Shown: positions 41,395 through 49,794 of the stretch, one piece after another
How positions within the stretch are numbered: the first letter of the stretch is position 1
How the letters are laid out: the number at the start of each line of letters is the position of its first letter
Source: an uncultured Gammaproteobacteria bacterium
GTDB lineage: Bacteria; Pseudomonadota; Gammaproteobacteria; Steroidobacterales; UBA11654
Direction: 5' to 3'
Length of the DNA: 64,000 nt
NCBI GenBank assembly: GCA_902595845.1
Contig: CACJRN010000005.1
Location: forward strand, 1 to 64,000
Made by a program: the position numbers and the translations under genes
Notes under the pieces: model-generated
Told to the model about the DNA's origin: nothing
Databases searched by the model: none
The model's input: only the letters and a program-made list of their open reading frames with translations

Positions 41395-43215
41395 ATGATG
41401 CCAGATTTACCTGAAACACATGCAATCTTTGTGATGATACTCACAGTTTTTGGAATCTATTTGTTTTCAAGAGATTGGATTTCTATTGAGTCTTCTAGCC
41501 TCACGATTCTGGCAATTTTGGTGGCATCATTTTATTTGTTCCCCTATTCATTTAACGGGAATCAGATTAATCCAATAGAATTATTTTTAACCAATTTTGG
41601 AAATGAAGCGCTCATTACAATTTGTCTATTGCTAGCAATCGGTAAAGCAATAGAGATCAATCGATCACTCGAACCACTCGTCGGTTTTCTCTCAAAATCT
41701 TGGGTTAATCATCCAAAAATCTCTCTTCTTGGCGTGCTTTTATTTGGGGCATTCTTTAGCGCATTTATCAATAACACACCAATCGTTGTGATGTTGATAC
41801 CTGCACTGATTGCTGTAAGTGAGAATGCAAAGATCAGCTCTTCAAGAGTTCTTATGCCAATGGGGATGGCTACGATCATCGGCGGCATGGCAACAACCAT
41901 TGGAACATCGACAAATTTGCTCGTTGTTGGAATAGCCAATGATATGGGACTAGAAGCCATCCAGTTGTTTGACTTTGTGATTCCTGCATTGATTGCTGGA
42001 TTTTTTGGAATTATATTTTTATGGCTTATCGCGCCAAACATGCTTCCAGATAGAACGCCGAGAGCTGAAAAAAAAGAAAATCGAGTTTTTGAGGCCTCTC
42101 TTTTTATCAATGAGGGAGGCTTTTCAGATGGCAAAACACTTGCAGAGATCCAGGAAAAGGCTGGAGATGGATTTAATATAGATAAGATCAAACGATCAGA
42201 GTCCCTGTTTGTGGCCAAGATTCCATCAGTAATTTTCGAGGCAGGAGACCGTATTTACATCAAAGACTCGCTTGAGAATCTTCAACACTATCAAGAGCTG
42301 CTTGATCTGAGTCTATTTGAGGATGAACAAAGTGATGATATAGGCCAAGAACAAGACGAAAATACACGCCTAGCAGAAGTGGTGATTACAGGCGGCTCTT
42401 TATTGGATCATATGTCAATGAATTCGCAACATTTTGCAACTCGATTCAATCTGATTCCATTGGGTGTTCACTCGGGCGCAACTGGAGCGAGGCTAACTGG
42501 AAATATCAGTTCAACAACTCTGAATCCTGGTGATGTTGTTTTGGTTCAAGGAACATCTGAGGCAATAGGTAACTTAAAAAGCAACAGCAACATGCTTGTG
42601 ATTGAGAAGGACACGCTTGATCTTGCAGCCAAGCGATCTTTTTTCCCGCTTTATATGATGCTGGGCGTCACTTTGATGGCAGCTACCAGTATCATGCCTA
42701 TTTCTGTGGCTGCCATGATCGGACTCTTGGTTATGTTACTCGTAGGTGCTTTGAGGTGGAGTGATGTTGGAAATTCAATGAACATTCCAGTCATCATGCT
42801 CATCGTTGCCAGTTTGAGCCTGGGTACTGCTCTTGAAATCACTGGCGGCTCTGATTTCATTGCAAATTGGTTTGTTTATTTTACTGCTTCCTTCCCGATG
42901 CCAGTTATTCTCAGTGTTTTGATGTTATTGATGGCGCTTTTGACCAACGTGGTTTCAAACAATGCTGCTGCAGTCTTGGGAACACCGGTTGCAATTAATA
43001 TTGCCATCCAATTGGGGGCTCCTATAGAGCCTTTTGTTCTCTCTGTTTTGTTCGGTGCAAACATGAGTTTTGTTACACCAATTGGATATAAAACCAATTT
43101 ACTGATCATGGGTGCAGGTGGCTATACATTCAATGATTTTGTAAAATTGGGTTTGCCGCTTGCCTTTATCATGTGGATTGTATTATCGATTACACTGCCG
43201 ATGTTATATTTTTAA
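41395..43215 (+). CDS. SLC13/DASS-type permease with central TrkA-C (RCK-C) domains
   Basis: TIGTSTNLLVVGIANDMG; TNVVSNNAAAVLGTPVAINIA; PIGYKTNLLIMGAGGYTF. Confidence 0.88.
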   Translation: MMPDLPETHAIFVMILTVFGIYLFSRDWISIESSSLTILAILVASFYLFPYSFNGNQINPIELFLTNFGNEALITICLLLAIGKAIEINRSLEPLVGFLSKSWVNHPKISLLGVLLFGAFFSAFINNTPIVVMLIPALIAVSENAKISSSRVLMPMGMATIIGGMATTIGTSTNLLVVGIANDMGLEAIQLFDFVIPALIAGFFGIIFLWLIAPNMLPDRTPRAEKKENRVFEASLFINEGGFSDGKTLAEIQEKAGDGFNIDKIKRSESLFVAKIPSVIFEAGDRIYIKDSLENLQHYQELLDLSLFEDEQSDDIGQEQDENTRLAEVVITGGSLLDHMSMNSQHFATRFNLIPLGVHSGATGARLTGNISSTTLNPGDVVLVQGTSEAIGNLKSNSNMLVIEKDTLDLAAKRSFFPLYMMLGVTLMAATSIMPISVAAMIGLLVMLLVGALRWSDVGNSMNIPVIMLIVASLSLGTALEITGGSDFIANWFVYFTASFPMPVILSVLMLLMALLTNVVSNNAAAVLGTPVAINIAIQLGAPIEPFVLSVLFGANMSFVTPIGYKTNLLIMGAGGYTFNDFVKLGLPLAFIMWIVLSITLPMLYF

Positions 43216-43225
43216 AATTGTCATC

Positions 43226-43254
43226 TTGACGATTGAACAATATAGAGACATACT
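43226..43254 (+). promoter_or_regulatory. Candidate sigma70 promoter for trp operon
   Basis: TTGACG (43226-43231), 17-bp spacer, CATACT (43249-43254). Confidence 0.5.
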
Positions 43255-43264
43255 TCTCACAGTT

Positions 43265-43312
43265 ATGAATACAAGGATTTCAAATAACAGTAACTGGTGG
43301 CGACTCTCTTAG
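43265..43312 (+). CDS. trpL: trp leader peptide MNTRISNNSNWWRLS
   Basis: ATG AAT ACA AGG ATT TCA AAT AAC AGT AAC TGG TGG CGA CTC TCT TAG; tandem Trp codons at 43295-43300. Confidence 0.9.
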   Translation: MNTRISNNSNWWRLS

Positions 43313-43359
43313 GAGAGGGCGACCTGTCTCTATTTGAAATCAAGGTTTACCCATCTCCT
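43304..43359 (+). promoter_or_regulatory. trp attenuator protector (1:2) and antiterminator (2:3) segments
   Basis: CTCTC-TTAG-GAGAG (43304-43317); AGGAGAGGG (43311-43319) complements CCCATCTCCT (43350-43359) with one bulged A; outer 11-bp IR GATTTCAAATA (43276-43286)/TATTTGAAATC (43331-43341). Confidence 0.85.
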
Positions 43360-43382
43360 ATTTAGGTGATGGGTTTTTTTTT
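43349..43382 (+). terminator. trp attenuator rho-independent terminator (3:4)
   Basis: ACCCATC-T-CCTATTTAGG-T-GATGGGT hairpin followed by a T-tract of 9. Confidence 0.88.
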
Positions 43383-43385
43383 GAA

Positions 43386-44780
43386 ATGAGCACATATTTT
43401 GACATTGAATTACAGGATGAGACACCCGCATCGGTGTTCATGAAGTTGCGTGAGCTTACTCCAACTTTTTTACTGGAGAGTATCGAAAGAGGAGTCGACC
43501 AATCAAGATACTCATTTTTGGGCATAGGAGCAGCTCAATCCATTCAAGTGAGAGATGGAAATTTCATTTTAAATGGGGAAAAAGTAAGCAAGCCAAGCTC
43601 TCAGTCCGAAGTGATGAATTTGTTTAGAAAAACACTCAAAGAAACCCCTGATTTAAAACCTGCAATCGAAGACATACCATTTTCAGGAGGTATGGTCGGC
43701 TTCAGTTCATTTGATATGATTCGTCATTTCGAGAAATTGTCTGTACCCAAGGGAAAAAAAGGCATTTTAAGCCCTCCAGATTGTTCATATCTTTCTCCAA
43801 CTTCACTTTTGGTCTTTGACCATGAAGCCAATAAGATGGCACTTCTTCATTCTGGAAATGAGGAAGAAAGAATAAATTTAAGGTCTGAAATACTCACAAT
43901 GCTCAACAAGGAGATCACCCAAACATATAAAAATAAGACATACTCCGAGCCAATTGGAAATATCAATGAAGAAAACTTTTATGATGCCGTTGAAACAGCA
44001 AAGCATCATATTTTTGAAGGAGATATTTTCCAGATCGTTTTATCCATTGCTTTCTCAGGAAGTTATGACCTTGATCCTTTTGATGTCTATCGAGCAATGC
44101 GATTGATCAACCCATCTCCTTATATGTTTTATTGTGAATCAGATGGTTTCAAAATTGCAGGATCTTCTCCAGAGGCTCTGGTTAGATTGGGAGGTAATAA
44201 AGCATCACTCAGGCCGATCGCAGGGACAAGACCAAGAGGCAAAGATTCAGAAGAAGACAATTTAAATAAAGAATCACTACTCGCGGATGAGAAAGAGATC
44301 GCAGAACATATCATGTTGGTTGATCTTGCACGAAATGATCTTGGACGTGTCGCAAAACATGGGTCAATCGAGGTCGAACCATATCAATCGATTGAATACT
44401 ATAGCCATGTGATGCATATCGTCAGTGGTGTTCAAGGCAATTTAGAAGATGACAAAGATGCCTTTGATTTATTTGCCGCAGCTTTTCCTGCAGGAACTTT
44501 GGTTGGCGCACCAAAAGTCAGAGCAATGGAATTGATTGATGAAATTGAGCCAGAACTCAGAGGTGTTTATGGAGGCACTGTAGGCTATTTTTCAAAGAAT
44601 GGAGACATGGATCAGGCAATTGCAATTCGAACCATTGTTTTTTCAGATGAGAAATATTGCTTTCAGGCGGGTGCGGGGATTGTAGCTGATAGTTTGCCTG
44701 AGAATGAATACAAAGAAGTCTTAGCAAAAAGCCAGATTCTCAGAACAGCATTAAAAATGGTGAAAGAGGGTGAGTTATGA
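43386..44780 (+). CDS. trpE: Anthranilate synthase component I
   Basis: GDIFQIVLSIAFSG; SSPEALVRL; LRPIAGTRPRGKD; GAPKVRAMELIDEIEPELRGVYGG. Confidence 0.97.
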   Translation: MSTYFDIELQDETPASVFMKLRELTPTFLLESIERGVDQSRYSFLGIGAAQSIQVRDGNFILNGEKVSKPSSQSEVMNLFRKTLKETPDLKPAIEDIPFSGGMVGFSSFDMIRHFEKLSVPKGKKGILSPPDCSYLSPTSLLVFDHEANKMALLHSGNEEERINLRSEILTMLNKEITQTYKNKTYSEPIGNINEENFYDAVETAKHHIFEGDIFQIVLSIAFSGSYDLDPFDVYRAMRLINPSPYMFYCESDGFKIAGSSPEALVRLGGNKASLRPIAGTRPRGKDSEEDNLNKESLLADEKEIAEHIMLVDLARNDLGRVAKHGSIEVEPYQSIEYYSHVMHIVSGVQGNLEDDKDAFDLFAAAFPAGTLVGAPKVRAMELIDEIEPELRGVYGGTVGYFSKNGDMDQAIAIRTIVFSDEKYCFQAGAGIVADSLPENEYKEVLAKSQILRTALKMVKEGEL

Positions 44781-45367
44781 GAAAAATTCTGATGATTGAT
44801 AACTTTGATTCTTTTACTTATAACCTGGTTCAGGGGTTCAGATCCTTAGGTACTGAGGTTGTGGTCTTTAGGAATGATGCCATTACCATTGATGAAGCAA
44901 AAGCCCTAGCACCAGACTTCCTTGTTATATCCCCAGGACCGGGAAGACCGAAAGATGCTGGTATCTCAATGGAGATCATCAAAGCATTTGCATCGAATGT
45001 ACCGATCCTCGGTGTATGTTTGGGGCATCAGTGTATTGTCGAAGTTTTTGGCGGTAAAATCACATATGCAAAGCAGCTCATGCATGGCAAAACCTCCGCA
45101 ATCGAGCACGATGAACAGACCATTTTTAAAAACATAAAAACACCGATGATTGTCGGTAGATATCACTCTTTGTCTGCAGATCAAAAAGAATTACCAAGAG
45201 AACTTGTGGTGAGCGCAAAGACTCCAAATGGTGAAATAATGGCAGTGAGACACAGCGTTTATAAAACTGAGGGAGTTCAATTTCATCCTGAAAGCATAAT
45301 GACTTCAGCAGGAATGCATTTAATGGAGAATTTCTTGAATATAAAAAAACCAGGAGACAAAACATGA
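44777..45367 (+). CDS. trpG: Anthranilate synthase component II (glutamine amidotransferase)
   Basis: MIDNFDSFTYNLVQ; ISPGPGRPKDAG; ILGVCLGHQCI; GVQFHPESIMT. Confidence 0.97.
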   Translation: MRKILMIDNFDSFTYNLVQGFRSLGTEVVVFRNDAITIDEAKALAPDFLVISPGPGRPKDAGISMEIIKAFASNVPILGVCLGHQCIVEVFGGKITYAKQLMHGKTSAIEHDEQTIFKNIKTPMIVGRYHSLSADQKELPRELVVSAKTPNGEIMAVRHSVYKTEGVQFHPESIMTSAGMHLMENFLNIKKPGDKT

Positions 45368-46383
45368 ATCATAATTTAGAAGATTTTTTAGCCATGCTTC
45401 TAGACGGTAAAGACTTATTAGAAGATCAGTCTGAGGAATTAATGACTGCAATGACAGAGGGCGAAGTTGAGCCAGCATTGGCAGGAGCACTACTGGTGGC
45501 TTTGCGGATGAAAGGCGAGTCAGCTGAGGAAGTCAGAGGTTTTGCCAATGGTATGCGTAAGGCTGCCAAAGAAGTTGAGTTAGAAAATTCTTCTGAGTTG
45601 ATCGATATTGTAGGAACAGGCGGTGATGGCTCACACAGTTTTAATATATCGACAGGCGCAGCCTTGCTCAGCGCTGCATGCGGTCTTAAAGTTGCAAAGC
45701 ATGGCAATCGCTCTGTTTCCAGTAAATCAGGAAGCGCCGATTTGCTCGAATTTCTTGGTTATCGCTTTCCAACAGATGCCGATGGTGTCAAAGCACAAAT
45801 GAGCATGAATGGCTTTAGTTTTTTATTTGCGCCAAATTTTCATCCAGCAATGAAACACATCGCTCCAATCAGAAAAGCATTAAAGATTAGAACAGTTTTT
45901 AATATCCTCGGGCCACTCACAAACCCAGCCAAACCATCCTTTTATTTACTAGGAGCATTCAGTTCTGAAATGGCGTCACTGATGGCATCCAGCTTGAGCG
46001 GAATGGAAATGAGTCGAGCGTTTGTTGTCCATGGATTAAATGGTTGGGACGAGCCAACACCTGCTTCTAAATTTGAACTATTCGATGTGAGCAAAGATTC
46101 AATTTCACATAAAATCATCGATCCGTCAGAGCTCGGAATGGATAAATGCAAAGAGGAGGATCTGAAAGGTGGAACGTCTGAGGTCAATGCAAAAGCCTTA
46201 TTAGAAGTTTTTGATGGCAAGGACAATGGGGCACATGAAGATGCATTGGTTTTGAATGCGGCTCTATCTCTTCAAGTTGCAGGCAAAACAGCAGATCTCA
46301 TTGAAGGAATTGAAATTGCAAGGCAGACAATTGTGAGCGGAAAAGCAAAAGACTTTCTGTCGGGTTTGACAAATGGGGATTAA
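45364..46383 (+). CDS. trpD: Anthranilate phosphoribosyltransferase
   Basis: DIVGTGGDGSHSFNISTGAA; KHGNRSVSSKSGSADLLE; RTVFNILGPLTNPA. Confidence 0.97.
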   Translation: MNHNLEDFLAMLLDGKDLLEDQSEELMTAMTEGEVEPALAGALLVALRMKGESAEEVRGFANGMRKAAKEVELENSSELIDIVGTGGDGSHSFNISTGAALLSAACGLKVAKHGNRSVSSKSGSADLLEFLGYRFPTDADGVKAQMSMNGFSFLFAPNFHPAMKHIAPIRKALKIRTVFNILGPLTNPAKPSFYLLGAFSSEMASLMASSLSGMEMSRAFVVHGLNGWDEPTPASKFELFDVSKDSISHKIIDPSELGMDKCKEEDLKGGTSEVNAKALLEVFDGKDNGAHEDALVLNAALSLQVAGKTADLIEGIEIARQTIVSGKAKDFLSGLTNGD

Positions 46384-47203
46384 ACAAAAAGAGAATTTTC
46401 TTGAGCGGATGACTCTTTCAAGCATGAAAAGACTCGAAGAGAATAAAGCCAAGCGATCAGAGGAAAGCCTCTTGAGGACTTGCGAAGGAATAGAAAGAAT
46501 GTCTTCTGTGCAATTTCAATCAGAGTTTATTTTCATCACAGAAATTAAAAAATCTTCACCATCGCTGGGCGAGATATCCAGACCAGAATTTAATCTTTTT
46601 GAGCAAGCCGAAGTTTACGTTGATGGGGGTGCGGATGTGATTTCTGTTCTAACCGAGCCAACAAAGTTTTCTGGCTCGTTAAACGATTTGGATGATATTT
46701 CAAAAACATTTTCTAAGGCGCTCACCATGAGAAAGGACTTTCTTGTTGAACCTTATCAGGTTTCCGAAGCTTTTATGCATGGTGCCAGCGGTGTTCTTTT
46801 AATCACGGCGATGCTGAGCGATGCCATGCTTAGAATGATGATTGATCGAGCAATAGAGCACCAAATGTTTGTCCTATTGGAGTCTTTTGATGAGGAGGAC
46901 ATGCAGCGATCGAAAGACATCATTTCAGAATACGGCTCCCAAAGTGCGAACATTCTTCTCGGTGTTAATTGTCGAGATCTAAGGACACTGGATGTCAGCT
47001 TTTCGAGGTTTGAAGAGCTTTCTGTCCTAATACCTCAGGATGTCATGTGCATTGCTGAAAGCGGAATCACTGAAGCCTCAGAAATAGAATTCCTATCGCA
47101 GATTGGTTATTCAGGTGCATTGATAGGAACATCATTGATGCAATCAGAAAACCCAGGCCAGTTATTAAAGGAAATGATGATGGCAGCATCAAAAAAGAAA
47201 TGA
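46373..47203 (+). CDS. trpC: Indole-3-glycerol phosphate synthase
   Basis: ITEIKKSSPSLGEI; ISVLTEPTKFSGS; GVNCRDLRTLDVSF; AESGI. Confidence 0.94.
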   Translation: MGIKQKENFLERMTLSSMKRLEENKAKRSEESLLRTCEGIERMSSVQFQSEFIFITEIKKSSPSLGEISRPEFNLFEQAEVYVDGGADVISVLTEPTKFSGSLNDLDDISKTFSKALTMRKDFLVEPYQVSEAFMHGASGVLLITAMLSDAMLRMMIDRAIEHQMFVLLESFDEEDMQRSKDIISEYGSQSANILLGVNCRDLRTLDVSFSRFEELSVLIPQDVMCIAESGITEASEIEFLSQIGYSGALIGTSLMQSENPGQLLKEMMMAASKKK

Positions 47204-47811
47204 AAACTTTAATCAAAATATGCGGCATAAGAAGGCTTGATGATCTTGAGTGCGCAATAGAGCATGGGGCAGATTTTATTGGCTTTGTTTTCGTAAAGTC
47301 CTCACCGAGGTATATTGATGCTAAGTCTGTTGCAAGCTTGGTGCGCTCAATACCAGATAAAATAAAAACCGTTGGGGTTATGCAACATGCAACACAAAGC
47401 ATTCTCGATTCTATTCTAAAAGACTTTAGGCCCTCTTATATCCAAACGGATGCCAATGATTTTGCATCACTCAATTTGCCAACTGATATCAAAAAAATAA
47501 AGGTTTATCGTGAAGAACAGAATTTTGATTTCTCCAGTATTGATGATCAATCATTGGCCCTTCTAGAGGGGCCAGTCAGTGGTTCAGGTGAGTTAGTCAA
47601 TAGAGATTTCTTGAAAGAAGCATGCGAGAAAAAAAGACTAATGGTAGCTGGCGGCCTTTCTCCTGATAATATTCAGAATATTTTAGAAGAAGTGAATCCA
47701 TACGGCGTGGACGTAAGTAGTGGAGTTGAAAGTGAAAGAGGCAATAAAAGTAAGGAAAAAATTATTCAATTTAATAAAATTGTCCGTAAATTTGATGAGT
47801 CAAAACAATGA
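47200..47811 (+). CDS. trpF: Phosphoribosylanthranilate isomerase
   Basis: IKICGIRRLDDLECAIEHGADFIGFVFVKSSPRYI; YGVDVSSGVESERGNKS. Confidence 0.95.
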   Translation: MKTLIKICGIRRLDDLECAIEHGADFIGFVFVKSSPRYIDAKSVASLVRSIPDKIKTVGVMQHATQSILDSILKDFRPSYIQTDANDFASLNLPTDIKKIKVYREEQNFDFSSIDDQSLALLEGPVSGSGELVNRDFLKEACEKKRLMVAGGLSPDNIQNILEEVNPYGVDVSSGVESERGNKSKEKIIQFNKIVRKFDESKQ

Positions 47812-49028
47812 GAAGTGAAGATCAAAACCTATTAAAAGCATTGCTCGATGGAGAGTTTCCAGATGAATCAGGGAGATTTGGAGTTTTCGGAGGGCAGTAC
47901 GCACCTGAAACTTTGATGCCGGCATTAAAAAAGTTAGAGAAGAATATCAAAATCTTCCTGAAAGATAAGACATTTCAAGAGGAGTTCGTGAAAGAGCTCA
48001 ACAGTTGGGCTGGTCGTCCAACTGCACTGACTTATGCAAAACAACTCAGTAAAAGGTGGGGCGTTGAGGTTTTTCTCAAGCGAGAGGATTTGACTCATAC
48101 AGGTGCTCACAAGATCAATAACGCACTCGGTCAAGCGATGCTTGCAAAGAAATTGGGCGTGAAAAGGATTGTTGCAGAAACTGGCGCTGGACAACACGGC
48201 GTTGCTTCCGCAGCTGCATGTGCCAGAGTGGGACTACCTTGTACAGTTTATATGGGCGCAATTGATATCGAGCGACAGGCTCCAAATGTCGACCGAATGA
48301 AACAATTGGGTACCGAAGTGATTTCTGTAATGAGCGGAGACCAAACTTTGAGGGCTGCCATTGATGAGGCGTTTAGGGATTGGGTATCAGACCCTGAAAA
48401 TACACACTATATAATCGGCTCTGTAGTAGGCCCGCATCCCTTCCCATTCTTGGTTAGGGAAATGCAGTCCATTATAGGAAAAGAAGCAAGACAACAGATG
48501 TTAAATGTTGAGGAAAGCCTTCCGGATGCAGTTTTTGCTTGCGTAGGTGGGGGCTCAAATGCAATTGGACTCTTTCACGCTTTTCTAGGTGATAGCGAAG
48601 TAGAGCTATTTGGGATAGAGGCAGGAGGGACAAGCGATGATTTGGGTGAAAATGCAGCGACACTTGCCTCTGGAAAACCAGGCATCCTCCACGGAACTTA
48701 TTCCATGTTATTACATGACAATGATGGCTTAATTCAGGAAACACATTCAGTATCGGCTGGGCTTGACTATCCTGGCGTTGGTCCAGAGCACGCATTCTTA
48801 CAATCGATAAACCGAGTAAAATATTCCTCAGCAAGAGATGATGAGGCCTTGGAATTATTGAGAGAGGTTTGTGAATATGAAGGAATATTACCAGCCATTG
48901 AAAGCTCCCATGCTTTTGTCGAAGCAAAAAAATGGGCCAAAGATAACAAAGGAAAACGAATTTTAATCGGGCTTTCTGGAAGAGGCGACAAGGATATGCC
49001 CACGCTCAGTAAATTAATGCATGAATGA
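47808..49028 (+). CDS. trpB: Tryptophan synthase beta chain
   Basis: LKREDLTHTGAHKINNALGQAMLAK; ETGAGQHGVASA; CVGGGSNAIGLFHAFL. Confidence 0.97.
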   Translation: MRSEDQNLLKALLDGEFPDESGRFGVFGGQYAPETLMPALKKLEKNIKIFLKDKTFQEEFVKELNSWAGRPTALTYAKQLSKRWGVEVFLKREDLTHTGAHKINNALGQAMLAKKLGVKRIVAETGAGQHGVASAAACARVGLPCTVYMGAIDIERQAPNVDRMKQLGTEVISVMSGDQTLRAAIDEAFRDWVSDPENTHYIIGSVVGPHPFPFLVREMQSIIGKEARQQMLNVEESLPDAVFACVGGGSNAIGLFHAFLGDSEVELFGIEAGGTSDDLGENAATLASGKPGILHGTYSMLLHDNDGLIQETHSVSAGLDYPGVGPEHAFLQSINRVKYSSARDDEALELLREVCEYEGILPAIESSHAFVEAKKWAKDNKGKRILIGLSGRGDKDMPTLSKLMHE

Positions 49029-49794
49029 ACATATGTTTGGCGGTCAATACATAGAGGACAGAATAAAGGCTCCCAAAGCGCCTGGACCTGCGATCATCCC
49101 ATTCATAACTGCAGGTCATCCTAATGCTGAGGACTTTAAACAGACACTCTATGATCTCGCAAAGAAAGCGGATGTGATTGAAATTGGGGTTCCATTTTCT
49201 GACCCCATGGCAGATGGGGTGACTATTCAGAGATCAAGCCATATGGCCATAGAAAATGGGGTGACGTTGACATGGATTTTCAGTCAACTTAAAGAAATTA
49301 AACTAGACACCCCAATTGTTCTGATGAGCTATTTAAATCCACTTTATGTATTTGGCTTGAAAGAGCTTGTCGAGGCTTCCATTGAATCTGGAGTTGACGG
49401 CTATATTGTTCCAGATTTGCCAATTGAAGAAAGCAAGGAACTCAATGATCAACTGACAGACGCTGGTCTAGCATTGATTCAATTGGTCACACCAGCGACA
49501 CCATCAGATAGAATTGAAATGATTACCAAACAAAGCTCAGGATTTATTTATGCAGTGACTGTTAAGGGCGTTACAGGGGGAGAAAATGCTTTGTCTGCTG
49601 ATGTGACGGATTACTTGGAACAAGTTCATGAGATTTCAAAAATACCCGTATGCGCCGGCTTTGGTATCAGAGATAAGTCTGATGTTGAAATGATTGCTGA
49701 GCATGTCGATGGCATCATTGTCGGCTCTGCAATTGTTGAAACAATTGAGCAAGGCAATAGCCCAACAGAATTTTTAGATCGGCTTAAAAATTAA
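49021..49794 (+). CDS. trpA: Tryptophan synthase alpha chain
   Basis: IPFITAGHPN; VIEIGVPFSDPMADGVTIQRSS; GVTGGENAL; CAGFGIRDKSDV. Confidence 0.96.
   Translation: MNEHMFGGQYIEDRIKAPKAPGPAIIPFITAGHPNAEDFKQTLYDLAKKADVIEIGVPFSDPMADGVTIQRSSHMAIENGVTLTWIFSQLKEIKLDTPIVLMSYLNPLYVFGLKELVEASIESGVDGYIVPDLPIEESKELNDQLTDAGLALIQLVTPATPSDRIEMITKQSSGFIYAVTVKGVTGGENALSADVTDYLEQVHEISKIPVCAGFGIRDKSDVEMIAEHVDGIIVGSAIVETIEQGNSPTEFLDRLKN

Follow-up and report, generated by a model that had tools for sequence, protein, structure and literature searches.

The analysed stretch of gammaproteobacterial DNA (64 kb, the window) carries a gene for a DASS-type transporter and, downstream of it, a complete trpEGDCFBA operon, with the attenuator described here sitting in between (Table 1). 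From the end of the DASS gene to the start of trpE there are 170 nt. As in the window, where the DASS transporter gene lies directly before the leader, close relatives have the end of a similar gene ahead of it, and such a gene end is also seen at locus L015. The score of the trpE product against its best NCBIfam model was 497 bits, just below the curated cut-off of 517.7 bits. Every junction of the trp operon overlaps, by 4–11 nt, and the overlaps of trpE/G, trpG/D, trpC/F and trpF/B are 4 nt long and of the ATGA type, which suggests translational coupling along the operon.

The host is a small-genome relative of Woeseia. Its genome comprises 1.44 Mb at 92% completeness, and the genomes of its family range from about 1.1 to 1.6 Mb. 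We place Woeseia in the order of the window because the Woeseia contig match and G367, a genome of that order, share coordinates.

Table 1. Coordinates of the trp leader and its neighbouring genes in the window
Feature	Position	Strand	Evidence or remark
DASS-family transporter, 606 aa	41395-43215	+ (same strand as trpE)	directly 5' of the trp leader
Predicted sigma-70-type promoter: TTGACG 43226-43231, 17-nt spacer, CATACT 43249-43254	43226-43254	+	sequence
trpL leader ORF, 15 codons, MNTRISNNSNWWRLS	43265-43312	+	ATG 43265, stop TAG 43310-43312; kept as WW leader in relatives
Long-range stem around the 1:2 hairpin, 43276-43286 with 43331-43341	43276-43341	+	perfect 11-bp inverted repeat, P 0.95
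Tandem Trp control codons TGG TGG	43295-43300	+	invariant in nine close leaders aligned
1:2 (anti-antiterminator / pause) hairpin: CTCTC 43304-43308 with GAGAG 43313-43317	43304-43317	+	
2:3 antiterminator: 43310-43319 with 43350-43360, A43353 bulged	43310-43360	+	constrained folding, covariation
Antiterminator inner extension: 43321-43325 with 43343-43347	overall 43310-43325 with 43343-43360	+	folding
3:4 intrinsic terminator: 43349-43355 with 43368-43374, 43357-43359 with 43364-43366	43349-43382	+	sequence, folding, covariation
trpE, anthranilate synthase component I	43386-44780	+	best NCBIfam model TIGR00564 trpE_most, E 5.6e-149
trpG, trpD, trpC, trpF, trpB, trpA	44777-49794	+	overlapping ends

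Parts of the leader and their expectation by chance

A first-pass annotation of this DNA had described a leader ORF with tandem TGG codons, a CTCTC/GAGAG pairing, an antiterminator formed by AGGAGAGGG and CCCATCTCCT, and a CCCATC/GATGGG terminator stem followed by nine T. All of these parts are present. In the terminator core, CCCATC (43350–43355) pairs with GATGGG (43368–43373), and the T run occupies 43374–43382. The antiterminator core consists of AGGAGAGGG (43311–43319) paired with CCCATCTCCT (43350–43359), with one bulged A at 43353; this pairing had been taken for the whole antiterminator, but the predicted helix is longer and runs from 43310–43325 to 43343–43360. The stop codon of the leader ORF abuts segment 2 (43311–43320).

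The start of trpE (43386) follows the T run at a distance of 3 nt only, whereas this gap measures 20–60 nt in most relatives outside the family of the window. No Shine-Dalgarno sequence of trpE's own was found in 43374–43386, and the sole G-rich stretch upstream is the 3' arm of the terminator. Control might also act at the level of translation.

Since the DASS gene, which ends at 43215, has the same orientation as trpE, the hairpin and its T run might simply terminate transcription of that gene, and the mini-ORF with its two Trp codons might be a chance frame. We consider this highly improbable. The intergenic sequence was shuffled 20,000 times with its dinucleotides preserved; a WW mini-ORF appeared in 87 of the shuffled sequences, a terminator with perfect arms in 351, and the two together in only two. 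In addition, the Trp-rich ORF, the promoter and the antiterminator are kept across the order, even in leaders whose peptide has otherwise diverged. Within the whole window, both strands included, this is the only WW mini-ORF with such a terminator behind it, and the terminator pattern has a single match in the 1.44-Mb genome.

The fold of 43226–43385 reached -47.4 kcal/mol (z = -4.1), for a stretch that includes promoter DNA and is thus probably not transcribed over its whole length. A stem in this minimum free energy structure, formed by ATAGAGACA of the promoter stretch and the downstream TGTCTCTAT, was set aside, because its first arm lies in the spacer and the -10 box and is probably not transcribed.

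Folding states and covariation of the leader RNA

We folded the transcript from its predicted start with those positions forced to be unpaired that a ribosome would cover. Without a ribosome, the 1:2 hairpin and the 3:4 terminator both formed with a pairing probability of 1.0, and the 11-bp long-range stem enclosed the 1:2 hairpin. When a ribosome occupied either Trp codon before segment 4 had been made, the 2:3 antiterminator formed with a mean pairing of 0.88–0.99, together with its inner extension. A ribosome at the stop codon abolished 2:3 (pairing 0) and left 3:4 at 1.0. That is, folding with and without masking gave the three states expected from the switch logic that had been proposed, in which the position of the ribosome decides between antiterminator and terminator. 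The 2:3 helix formed only when segment 1 was masked and segment 4 had not yet been transcribed; as soon as segment 4 was available, the terminator was always favoured at equilibrium. The switch therefore rests on kinetics, as the mechanism requires and as in other attenuators.

Compensatory changes in all three stems had been named as decisive for this reading, and they were found for two of them. About 100 leaders were aligned with a model that holds the 3:4 structure only, so the antiterminator was not fitted. Since these leaders are related and not independent, the following shuffle counts are comparisons and not probabilities. The 3:4 terminator was paired in 97.5% of cells and showed 52 double-change cells versus 8.0 ± 2.4 after shuffling. 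For the 2:3 antiterminator, 45 double-change cells were counted versus 19.4 ± 3.2 after shuffling, and its covariation score exceeded that of all slid controls.

The 1:2 helix, in contrast, showed no covariation at fixed columns across the order (18 double-change cells versus 19.6 shuffled, 100 leaders); a slightly positive signal seen with 33 leaders was gone with 100 and is not claimed. This is expected where segment 1 is also coding and its register drifts. What speaks for 1:2 is its folding energy: among 93 leaders, 80% gave a better value than after shuffling of segment 1 (mean -8.8 versus -6.8 kcal/mol), which is weaker evidence than covariation. For the long-range stem the evidence is limited to the family of the window, where 77% of cells were paired in nine leaders and slid controls reached 27–53%.

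These results make it very probable that the region is a ribosome-mediated transcription attenuator, by which charged tRNA-Trp sets the expression of trpEGDCFBA. Transcription would start at the trpL ATG or a few nucleotides before it, and a ribosome would bind at the near-leaderless 5' end. When tRNA-Trp is in short supply, we infer that this ribosome stalls at UGG-UGG and covers segment 1. Segment 2 would then take segment 3 once this is made, no terminator would form, and RNA polymerase would get through to trpE. If Trp is plentiful, the ribosome should proceed to the UAG at 43310. The known size of the ribosome footprint was used to place segment 2 under a ribosome at this position; with segment 2 covered, segments 3 and 4 would pair and transcription would stop at the T run, yielding an RNA of about 120 nt. 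Without translation, the 1:2 hairpin and the long stem around it would form and the terminator would win again.

The same terminator could in principle be used by another sensor, namely a T-box, a TRAP-like protein or a riboswitch, to which trpL would be incidental. We give this hardly any credence: no Rfam family, T-box and riboswitches included, matched the window or six related loci at gathering score, and what is conserved are the Trp codons and how far they lie from segment 2. A permissive search of 42500–44000 gave only sub-threshold matches, among them PyrR, GcvB and RybB, and these were dismissed as chance matches driven mostly by the terminator.

Distribution in the order, probable leaderless start and stop codon layouts

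Matches to TrpE were obtained in 58 of 59 relatives. Among the 30 loci fetched first, which include that of the window, 29 have a Trp-rich leader followed by a terminator before trpE, with the Trp codons tandem or near-tandem, so that the Trp codons are indeed retained in homologous leaders as the attenuator reading demands. The exception, L015, comes from a 1.6-Mb genome of the same order (G015) and is without an attenuator; its trpE lies within about 10 nt of an upstream transporter-like gene, which looks as though reading of the operon now began in that gene. The leader also occurs in named gammaproteobacterial contigs, including Woeseia sp. OFTM247.

A covariance model built from 33 leaders matched 96 of the 117 genomes sampled from the order, and within the genus one full-length strong site per genome was found in nine of ten genomes. 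Run against 274 genomes sampled from the class, this model gave no strong match outside the order (best E 4e-6). The matches outside the order were weak (E > 1e-6), and several of them span the terminator part of the model only. Within the order's families f13 (for example G022, G035 and G046) and f14 (G023, G036 and G047), none of the listed genomes matched the leader model. The best TrpE match in f13 is only about 45% identical, and the f13 trpE may be of another lineage with other regulation.

The predicted promoter arrangement before trpL recurs in the relatives. A TTGAC element, a spacer of about 17 nt and a mostly NATACT -10 box, ending 4–11 nt before the leader start, were present in 81 leaders. 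Among the first 43 leaders, 38 have a -10 box that ends 6–11 nt ahead of the start codon (search range 4–14 nt); in 43 of 60 further leaders this distance is 4–9 nt, mostly 6–8 nt (search range 3–30 nt). Transcription generally starts about 7 nt after the -10 box, and the predicted start is therefore at the ATG or a few nucleotides off; for the window this places it at about 43260–43262, with a predicted 5' UTR of 3–5 nt. No Shine-Dalgarno sequence precedes the trpL ATG of the window, and a Shine-Dalgarno-like sequence within 16 nt of the trpL start was seen in only 3 of 43 leaders. Since the -10 box lies 4–11 nt from the ATG and a Shine-Dalgarno sequence is almost always absent, the trpL mRNA is probably leaderless, as in Sinorhizobium.

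With respect to the trpL stop codon, two layouts occur. In 29 leaders, those of the window's family included, the stop lies between -5 and +1 nt from the start of segment 2. In most other leaders it is at least 8 nt downstream of that start, mostly at +13 to +23 with peaks at +17 and +20, and the frame continues across segment 2 (for example ...AERVIS*). With either stop position, a ribosome halted at the stop would have segment 2 within its footprint. The two layouts offer a natural test of which ribosome position must cover segment 2.

Other regulators and relation to known attenuators

We found no true TrpR in the host's own genome, in which, at 92% completeness, an undetected TrpR is possible. 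Matches to PF01371 had at first been taken for TrpR, but the sole protein of the Trp_repressor family in the host proved to be of the YerC/YecD type, scoring 78.6 bits against the YerC/YecD model (cut-off 42.2) and 30 bits against TrpR (cut-off 67.25). In the relatives, PF01371 matches are assigned at the level of the family and not of the type. Since no true TrpR was found, the trp operon may have no Trp-specific transcriptional control besides attenuation. The YerC/YecD-type homologue (106 aa) is encoded at L114:576-896 (contig C2 of the host genome G000, about 123775–124095), and an ORF resembling the end of a leuB-type dehydrogenase lies upstream of it. HisR is a DNA-binding regulator of histidine genes (PMC9413887).

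The first-pass annotation had called the mechanism enterobacterial trp attenuation logic, and as far as the mechanism goes this fits. As in trpL-trpE of E. coli, a leader peptide with tandem Trp codons, mutually exclusive 1:2, 2:3 and 3:4 pairings, a stop codon bordering segment 2 and a terminator with a U run stand before trpE. E. coli trpL, however, has a Shine-Dalgarno sequence and a longer 5' UTR, whereas here the predicted 5' UTR is 3–5 nt long and without a Shine-Dalgarno sequence; this probably leaderless start sets the region apart from the enterobacterial case. Further differences are the extra 11-bp stem around 1:2, the start of trpE 3 nt after the T run, and the fact that no TrpR equivalog was found. 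Nor did the Rfam model of the E. coli-type leader, Trp_leader RF00513, match the window or its relatives at gathering score, and on 42500–44000 it gave no match even at E values up to 10. The kind of attenuator is already known, and its members across the order are not in Rfam. The proteobacterial amino-acid attenuators catalogued through comparative genomics by Vitreschak et al. 2004 (cited as ref. 22 in PMC2965389) belong to the same class of regulator and were approached by the same comparative route.

A parallel to the predicted start of trpL is found in Sinorhizobium meliloti, where trpL encodes a 14-aa leader peptide, the mRNA starts at its ATG, and trpLE(G) is without transcription repression (PMC7298713). 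Both systems have a short leader peptide, and the near-leaderless start is here predicted from promoter spacing. The S. meliloti system is alphaproteobacterial and precedes trpE(G), whereas here trpE and trpG are separate genes of a seven-gene operon. In S. meliloti the released products, the leader RNA rnTrpL and the leader peptide peTrpL, act in trans, and the same attenuator might have such a second function here, through its terminated leader RNA, through a leaderless trpL peptide, or through both. The predicted terminated leader, at about 120 nt, would be a small and nearly leaderless mRNA and would share this format with rnTrpL, which starts at its ATG (PMC7298713). No trans target is apparent in the sequence, however, the peptide outside the Trp codons varies widely even within the genus (MNTRISNNSNWWRLS versus MIKLELNLGNWWLLS), and the trans-acting cases in PMC7298713 are from Alphaproteobacteria; we regard such a second function as very unlikely. 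Also unlikely, if somewhat less so, is the combined reading that the order as a whole holds a family of leaderless trp attenuators with two stop layouts that both cover segment 2, whose released leader RNA or peptide may act in trans.

With this attenuator, a regulatory switch known from textbooks is recorded for a small-genome lineage; it is common to most of the order though absent from Rfam. Its probable leaderless start and its two stop layouts are the parts of most use to follow. The probable leaderless start is of more use than the record of the switch itself: should it be confirmed, attenuators with a leader peptide would be able to work with 5'-terminal AUG initiation not only in rhizobia but also in Gammaproteobacteria.
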